A stretch of 64,000 nucleotides of DNA, taken from NCBI GenBank assembly GCA_019914995.1, contig CM034141.1, forward strand, positions 1,674,001 to 1,738,000. Reading direction: 5' to 3'. Source of the stretch: Acanthochlamys bracteata (taxonomy: Eukaryota; Streptophyta; Magnoliopsida; Pandanales; Velloziaceae). This document shows, one piece after another, positions 58,614 through 60,896 of this stretch. The stretch's first letter is position 1, and each line of letters starts with the position of its first letter. Position numbers and translations under genes: made by a program. The notes beneath the pieces are model-generated. The model was not told the origin of the DNA. It saw only the letters and a list, made by a program, of their open reading frames with translations, and searched no databases.

Positions 58614-59342
58614 GAACGTTGTTGATGGAGAAGGGACGGAAACAGGAGGAAGAGCTGAAGGCAGCGAGCAACAAGAAGAGAGAGAAAGTTTAGTTTGTGT
58701 TTCTTTCCGATCGGTGGGAAACGGAACCGAGAAGATGACCGCGGTTGAATTACGAATATTTAAAGGTCCAACATAAGTCTCGCAGAAAATAAAAATATGT
58801 ATATTTAATTATTTGTTGAAAGCTGTTTTTGATTTTAACAGTGTGTCAGTTTAATTAGACTTTTTTTGGGAACTAGTGAATTCTCATTTCACTCGTCAGT
58901 ATAATTAAGTACAATTGTTTTTATACTTATTTCAATTATAATTAAAATACTTAAAATTATAATCATTTTTAAGCCAATTTTTAAATTATTTTGAAAAGTT
59001 TAATTCTTGAAAATCACTCTATTGTAACCAGTGTAGTCAGATCCGGACCGACCGGGTCCGATCGGAAACCGGCGACCTGGTCACCGTCCCGGGTCGAGTC
59101 ACTTATTTACCGGGTCACCGGCGAGAGTCGATAGAGATGGAGAAGCACACGTAGTCGTCGGTGAGTAGAATGAAGCCGGATAAATTCGTCTGCGGAAGAA
59201 TTTTTCTTCTCTATTGCAGCAAGCTTGATGCAGTATATTAGACAATGAAAATGCTTAGCTACGCCAGCGTAGATAGTGTCGTCGGCCAAACAGACTGGCA
59301 ACACAAGAAGAACCAGTCCAGTCCGAAGTTTCACCCGCCGAC

Positions 59343-59768
59343 GCAACTAAGCTCAATAATAATCTTATCGAGCTAATTAATTTCACCAAGAACTCCGATG
59401 ATGCCCGAAAGAAAGCTTTACCTAGCTGGCCATCAATGGCCGCACTGCATCATAAACTCTTCGACCTCCGGTTTCATCACGCCAGTGCAGCCGCATTCAC
59501 CGCAGCATTGATCTACTTCATTTTCATTGGCCCTTCGGTTTCCTCCGTCGACAACTTCTTCTGGCATTTGCTTCTCTCGGTCGCCTTCATCCTCGCCGTT
59601 GTCAACTTCTTTTGGCCTTTGCTTCGCTCAACCGCCTTCCTCTTCGCCATCGTCGCAGTCCACATCTACATCTCCTCCCCTGTTGATGACTCTAATGCTG
59701 GTGAACACCTCGTGAATACATTACCAGCTAGCCTTTCGGTGAAGTCTCCGGCCACCAAAACGACATGA
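59343..59768 (+). CDS. Unrecognised membrane-protein-like frame inside the hAT-like element
   Basis: From ATG 59436 the frame encodes 110 residues (MAALHHKLFDLRFHHAS...). It is open and protein-like for at least 30 codons upstream (KLNNNLIELINFTKNSDDA), so the true product may begin earlier or in a missing exon. Three hydrophobic stretches follow in tandem (AAFTAALIYFIFIG, LLLSVAFILAVVNFFW, STAFLFAIVAVHIYI), then a polar tail ending TTLPASLSVKSP-like sequence. I do not recognise the family. It could be captured host sequence or a chance frame in GC-rich DNA; the even spacing of the hydrophobic segments favours a real protein. Confidence 0.35.
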   Translation, partial: ATKLNNNLIELINFTKNSDDARKKALPSWPSMAALHHKLFDLRFHHASAAAFTAALIYFIFIGPSVSSVDNFFWHLLLSVAFILAVVNFFWPLLRSTAFLFAIVAVHIYISSPVDDSNAGEHLVNTLPASLSVKSPATKTT

Positions 59769-59843
59769 TCAGAGCTGATGTTGACAGACAGGCGGCGAAA
59801 TTTGATTGGCAAAAGAGCAGTTGATCAGAGCAAGAATGATTAA

Positions 59844-60101
59844 GGGGTTGTTTGGCACTGATTATCATAAGCAATTTTTCAACTTTTCTCCATTTCACGT
59901 TTTCTAATACATATTTTATAAGTATTTAAAAATTTTATTTAAAATTTTAGATAGTGTAGAAAAATTCTACGAAGTGAGATTTTTTTATTACATATTTTTA
60001 TTATTTTTTTGGAAGTAAAAAATAGAGTTCGTTTTTCAAAAAAGACAAAAATACCTTCTATTTTAGAAAAGCTCTATTTTATAAGCACTACCAAACGCTC
60101 C
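59844..60101. mobile_element. Tourist-like MITE nested in the hAT-like element
   Basis: The 258-bp element begins GGGGTTGTTTGGCACTG and ends GCACTACCAAACGCTCC, a good inverted pair. TAA flanks it at 59841-59843 and 60102-60104. The core carries the family signature (TTTAAAATTTTAGATAG, GTAGAAAAATTCTAC). It postdates its host element. Confidence 0.85.
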
Positions 60102-60560
60102 TAAGAGCTTCCGGTGAAGTCTTCTAATGTTAAAATAACTGACAAAATTAGTGGGTCAGCGTTGTAAAATATTACAAATATGTTCTATATTTGTAATATC
60201 TTATGATTATGGGTTTAGTTAAAATACCGAATATTTTTCACTTCAGCTTCATGTTCATCTTCTTCTTCCGAAGGATGGAGAAGACGGTGGAAACAAGGTA
60301 CGTTTCCACCGTAGGAACAACCGAAGGTGCAGTAGCAGTAGCTATAGTAGTAGGAATAGAAGCAGAATTCATATTGAAGCCTCGCTCCGTTAGATTCATC
60401 TTTCCGAAAATAAACCTAGAAAGAAGCCCGGTTCGGCATAATCATCGCTCGCTGCTTTTCAAATCTATACCGTTTTTGAAGTTTTTTCATCATGTGTCTA
60501 CACTAATGAACAGCAGTTTTTGGCATAGCCGTCGATAATCTCGCTCTTTAGTCCGTCTCC

Positions 60561-60790
60561 TTATTTGTTTCTATTGTTATGTTGGATTTGTTGATCTTCA
60601 TCATCTTCGTCTTCGTTATCAAGATCTAGAAATTTTCTGAGGGTGTTGAAGAAGAGGTAAAGCTCCATCGGCCGGACCTGGCCATTAAGAAACAACTCAT
60701 CAGCAGAGTTCGTGGTAATGTTTCTTACTGAAAACTCGAACGAAGAAATGATTCGAATTCCGGTCAAAGTAGCCGGAGCCGACGAGATTA
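60561..60790 (-). other. Minus-strand gene-like frame with ADELF..GQVRPM motif and acidic tail
   Basis: The frame reads SSFEFSVRN, then SADELFLNGQVRPMEL, and ends in an acidic DNEDEDDEDQQ tail with a stop at 60561-60563. The F-E-F ... ADELF..G.IRP.. pattern occurs in several plant proteins of the MAKR and DUF1645 kind, from memory. There is no ATG start in the visible frame, so it is a fragment or an internal exon carried by the element. A second minus frame at about 60240-60380 (MNSASIPTTIATATAPSV) could be an exon of the same cargo. Confidence 0.3.
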
Positions 60791-60896
60791 ACCCAGCGGG
60801 TCAACTCGGTGACCCGCCGGATAAACCGGTGATCCGGTGACCCGGCAGCTTTTTCAAATTACTACTCGGGTCGGATCTGACAATATTGATTGTAAC

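Follow-up and report, generated by a model that had tools for sequence, protein, structure and literature searches.

The question raised by this locus is whether the block at positions 59029-60888 of the 64,000-nucleotide stretch analysed (hereafter the window) is a transposable element, and whether the gene-like frames that it holds were captured from a host genome. The first-pass annotation had read it as a hAT-like element without a transposase of its own, carrying captured gene pieces on both strands (a Pack-hAT). In our view, the block is probably a non-autonomous hAT element, possibly of the Tag1 group, with a DUF1645 gene fragment inside; this content would most likely make it a Pack-hAT, which later received a nested MITE.

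A distance of 454 bp separates the block from the 5' end (58574, minus strand) of an armadillo-repeat open frame, whose gene may have exons further upstream. The protein-coding surroundings recognized with Pfam, which mark the window as plant DNA, are as follows:

57432-58574, minus strand: armadillo-repeat frame, matching the plant U-box-protein ARM region, with no U-box among the matches
25587-28004: SURP/PRP21 splicing-factor frame
52878-53804, minus strand: AAA frame
24069-24779: DDE_Tnp_4 transposase frame, PIF/Harbinger-like (E 1.9e-23)

No Pfam match at E 0.01 was found in three frames at 63-64 kb, and a search of 54000-64000 against Rfam returned nothing at gathering thresholds. Tandem repeats with periods of 154 bp (20531-20965) and 26 bp (21172-21251) are located upstream of the DDE_Tnp_4 frame. 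In addition, the window holds a tRNA-Val (AAC) predicted by ARAGORN at 17492-17567 and a minus-strand frame at 8256-8537 that matches ribosomal protein L5e in part (E 9e-7) and may be an exon or a pseudogene.

Boundaries of the probable insertion and its superfamily

The following features define the putative element and its ends:

59029-60888: putative hAT element, bounded by an exact 8-bp duplication and matching inverted ends
59021-59028, unstranded: left target-site duplication ATTGTAAC, an exact match to 60889-60896
60889-60896, unstranded: right target-site duplication ATTGTAAC, identical to 59021-59028
59029-59046, plus strand: left terminal inverted repeat CAGTGTAGTCAGATCCGG, 14/18 against the right end
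60871-60888, minus strand: right terminal inverted repeat CAATATTGTCAGATCCGA, 14/18 against the left end
59029-59168, plus strand: left subterminal region, rich in G+C and holding the GGTSACC words at 59079 and 59113
60749-60888, minus strand: right subterminal region, rich in G+C and holding the GGTSACC words at 60808 and 60836

The coordinates given in the first-pass annotation are right to the base, and its description of matching ends between identical flanking repeats holds: both copies of ATTGTAAC abut the block, and CAGTGTAGTCAGATCCGG and CAATATTGTCAGATCCGA agree at 14 of 18 positions, or at 17 of 22 when the comparison is extended. Repeat pairs were scored by the 8-bp duplication together with the inverted ends, weighted by base composition, and this pair reached 35.8, ranking first among the 19,323 scored in the window. 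Locally shuffled windows attained at least this score in 2 of 200 cases (shuffle median 29.3); the ends and the duplication alone therefore represent a finding of about 1 in 100. Plain matching would be insufficient here because the window is A+T-rich and, counted without weights, contains 14 pairs of identical 8-mers with ends that match at 14 or more of 18 positions, the remaining 13 of which are A+T-rich. The motif GTCAGATCCGR, with up to one mismatch, is found in the window only at the two ends of the element, and 13 of 100 shuffles also hold at least two occurrences.

Base composition changes abruptly at both junctions, with a G+C content of 0.21 outside (200 bp) versus 0.54 inside on the left, and of 0.49 inside versus 0.27 outside on the right. 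The word GGTSACC occurs four times in the 64 kb, twice per end and each time at most 140 bp from that end; none of 5000 shuffles of the element ends held four, for a word that was picked after inspection of the sequence. It forms the core of the 10-mer GGGTCACCGG, which is found exactly twice, once at each end. With one mismatch allowed, this 10-mer, taken from the first-pass annotation, has seven places in the window: the element contains four, two of them being extra ones in the right end, and the other three lie outside it. The shuffle mean is 0.29, and no shuffle of 100 reached seven. The composition step and the GGTSACC words agree with the ends and the duplication at the same two places. 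This coincidence, in which a hAT-type tip on the left also takes part, argues against a reading without any transposon, in which chance ends would surround an ordinary small gene; the two shuffled windows that equalled the score speak in favour of such a reading, which we nevertheless regard as extremely improbable.

As to the superfamily, a MULE, with its 9-bp duplication, was ruled out, since the agreement between the flanks stops at 8 bases. The 8-bp duplication, as in the hAT superfamily, and the CA...TG tips point to a hAT element. Plant hAT terminal inverted repeats are reported to follow the patterns [T/C]A[A/G]NG or [T/C]AGNGNNG (PMC6027215). The left end fits both; the right end, CAATATTG, misses two of the four fixed positions of the longer pattern and one of the shorter. 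No further copy of the element was seen within the 64 kb. A search of IMG/VR with the element ends gave 14 stretches with one match each and no pair in the DNA searched, which are presumed to be chance matches.

The right-end 22-mer agrees at 17 of 22 positions with the presumed end of Arabidopsis Tag1, and it is the best match to that end in the window on either strand (best other 14). The left end agrees at 14 of 22, a value shared by at least six unrelated places among the top eight matches listed. The likeness serves as a lead, albeit a good one, to possible membership in the Tag1 group; two stretches of the presumed Tag1 end were absent from the literature text searched. Binding of the Tag1 transposase to TGACCC and AAACCC subterminal words has been reported (PMC3143072). 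On either strand, TGACCC is present four times in the two 140-bp ends, as many as in none of 5000 shuffles, and the rest of the window contains it seven times and its reversed form eight times. AAACCC is found in neither 140-bp end.

Elsewhere in the window, another hAT-like candidate measures 574 bp (55068-55641, within 55060-55649); it is flanked by the 8-bp repeat AACCAAAC and has ends TAGCGGTGACAA and TAGGGGTGGCAA that match at 12 of 18 positions. Its score of 28.4 is lower than the median best score of the shuffles (29.3), and its ends alone are therefore no proof of an element.

Interior of the element

Between the subterminal regions, the following features were distinguished:

59277-59768, plus strand: membrane-protein-like open frame (ATG 59436, stop 59766-59768)
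59844-60101, unstranded: putative nested Tourist-like MITE of 258 bp, with TAA duplications at 59841-59843 and 60102-60104
60165-60203, unstranded: AT-rich palindrome with 17-nt arms (94%)
60203-60538, plus strand: open frame of 111 aa, with no Pfam match
60561-60767, minus strand: putative captured, broken DUF1645 gene fragment (PF07816 positions 1-39 of 188)

No transposase family was found in the element when all six frames, with stops masked, were searched against Pfam at E <= 1, in keeping with the absence claimed at first. An autonomous element, or a decayed transposase inside this one, was rejected on the same grounds. Ends and a duplication of the hAT type would also be left by a formerly autonomous hAT whose transposase had worn past recognition. 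In addition to the empty six-frame search, the length is at odds with this explanation: without the MITE, the hAT element proper measures about 1.6 kb, and a transposase gene with its ends is expected to be longer. We consider such decay highly unlikely. The assignment of 59029-60888 to the non-autonomous hAT insertions is thus supported by the ends and the duplication, the G+C steps, the GGTSACC words, and the lack of a transposase family.

The segment at 59844-60101, overlooked in the first-pass annotation, is interpreted as a Tourist-like MITE, a later arrival inside the hAT element and not part of its cargo. Its ends are GGGGTTGTTTGGCA and GGAGCGTTTGGTA, TAA is duplicated on both sides, and GGGGTTGTTTGG presumably resembles PIF/Harbinger-type ends. 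Target-site duplications of PIF elements are reported to be TTA or TAA (PMC8903248). The segment is repeated, with one diverged relative in the window, in inverted orientation at 3583-3800 (78% over 221 bp, E 5e-43); weaker A+T-rich matches elsewhere may be due to chance. A pair of inverted arms at 18105-18743 (117 nt, 70% complementary, 405 nt apart), weakly similar to the nested MITE, is possibly another MITE.

The membrane-protein-like frame described earlier is present on the plus strand and encodes hydrophobic stretches. It includes an in-frame tandem duplication of 51 bp (17 codons) at 59545-59646 with copies 80% identical, differing at 10 bases; among the 16 codons compared, three changes are silent and six alter the residue, which gives no sign of selection for a membrane-like protein. 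Pfam yielded no match above the cut-off (DUF4149, E 0.14, and Caa3_CtaG, E 0.84, both fell under it), PDB nothing up to E 10, and IMG/VR 11 pattern matches without a relative. No codon bias was detected, the score being near zero compared with 0.07-0.38 in five self-scored training frames, and 40 of 1000 shuffles reached the length of the frame. The fold predicted from the single sequence was poor (mean pLDDT 67.4, pTM 0.31). Neither a captured origin nor a coding role of the frame is supported by the Pfam, PDB and IMG/VR searches, the codon score or the fold. The 111-aa frame at 60203-60538 is probably a chance frame, as a stop-to-stop frame of equal length occurred in 79 of 1000 shuffles and no codon bias was found.

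The minus-strand frame, noted in the first-pass annotation as ADELF-type, is present and resembles a short, broken part of a DUF1645 gene from a plant, a likeness that adds to that annotation. The frame matches DUF1645 (PF07816) with E 2.2e-5 and 25.6 bits, 0.6 bits over the cut-off of 25; the match begins at the first position of the family, and its core, SADELFLNGQVRPM, lies at 60666-60707. Since 39 of 188 positions are covered before the frame stops, the fragment cannot make a DUF1645 domain. Members of PF07816 are reported to derive from hypothetical plant proteins, and one of them, the stress-related OsSGL, is described as lacking introns (PMC5186801). When the whole frame was taken with stops read through, the score fell to 22.1 bits (E 0.00026). 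The codon score of the frame (0.115) is below those of four of the five training frames, which were self-scored, and below that of the opposite-strand frame (0.142). One virus record and 14 control genomes, also searched for the family, gave no match, a result that is uninformative. A longer, frame-joined DUF1645 reading was rejected: it reached 28.8 bits, but a version with the middle scrambled still scored 27.3, and the extra frame therefore adds no evidence.

The shortness and marginal score of the match, as well as the other frames, which have neither relatives nor codon bias, would suit a plain non-autonomous hAT packed with non-gene filler, in which an acidic run had helped a chance resemblance to DUF1645 over the cut-off. 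Weak matches can arise in this way, as shown by an approximate scramble of the frame that matched Trehalase_Ca-bi with E 0.044. However, neither this scramble nor an approximate reversal matched DUF1645, and an approximate scramble of the core motif with the acidic tail kept abolished the match, with nothing reported, which means that the score depends on the motif. Conversely, the frame without its acidic tail still found DUF1645 over 16 positions around the core motif, at 17.9 bits (E 0.0053), below the cut-off. Moreover, among the ten proteins searched against Pfam, four of them from the element, DUF1645 was matched by the minus-strand frame alone. We therefore regard the filler explanation as unlikely.

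The DUF1645 likeness supports gene capture. The claim of captured gene pieces stands for the minus-strand frame, with a score just over the cut-off, and is unsupported for the membrane-like frame, which has no relative above the cut-off in Pfam, none in the PDB, and no codon bias. Given that the element shows no trace of a transposase at the search threshold and carries, in the DUF1645-like piece, apparent host coding DNA, it is most likely a Pack-hAT.

Proposed history and comparison with known systems

In hAT elements, the transposase binds subterminal words, cuts the tips, pastes the element elsewhere, and leaves 8 bp duplicated. By analogy with the superfamily, the Pack-hAT candidate described here would be moved by cut-and-paste, now or formerly, by a transposase supplied in trans from an autonomous relative elsewhere, which would bind the repeated words near the ends and cut at the CA...TG tips. 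Such an event would have placed the element upstream of the armadillo-repeat frame and left the 8-bp duplication. The DUF1645 piece may have been acquired while a break was being repaired, or when neighbouring copies fused. Gene capture has been ascribed to faulty repair after excision (PMC3260210), and capture by Pack-CACTA elements to hybrids formed between closely neighbouring elements (PMC13317346). The fragment would since have lost its coding function, and the Tourist-like MITE would have landed inside the hAT element afterwards.

A more specific version, in which a Pack-hAT of the Tag1 group gives rise to a transcript that either runs antisense to the DUF1645 fragment or is fused with it, appears very improbable. 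If true, the insertion next to the armadillo-repeat gene would connect this gene, or the DUF1645 donor, with small RNAs derived from the transposon.

Arabidopsis Tag1 is autonomous, unlike the element here. It resembles the element in the TGACCC words near its ends but differs in its AAACCC words, which are absent from the ends here (PMC3143072).

Elements of the hAT superfamily with gene fragments are already in print for maize and grapevine (PMC3260210, PMC8903248, PMC2528002). Maize Ds-l4 and Ds2 are described, like the element here, as short non-autonomous hAT elements with ends of their own, an unrelated interior, and occasional gene fragments (PMC3260210). According to the same source, the modal length of Ds-l4 is about 1 kb, and gene fragments, which are rare in hAT elements, were found in two Ds2 and nine Ds-l4 elements (PMC3260210). 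Ds-l4 and Ds2 have Ac-type 11-bp ends, and some of their donor genes have been identified, whereas the ends here are of another type (PMC3260210). Grapevine Hatvine-6 hAT elements share with the present one a variable interior that often comprises genic and non-genic host sequence, but they are reported to have a common transposase coding sequence, which was not found here (PMC2528002). The Pack-hAT elements of maize and rice are likewise non-autonomous, with an 8-bp duplication and captured coding DNA; those described in grasses carry Bg and Ac ends, whereas the present element has other ends and a single short broken fragment (PMC8903248). The element most likely adds one more member to a known kind, distinguished by its ends and its DUF1645-like fragment. 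A single element with one short broken fragment alters little alone; a clean example of capture with neither Ac- nor Bg-type ends would broaden the picture slightly.
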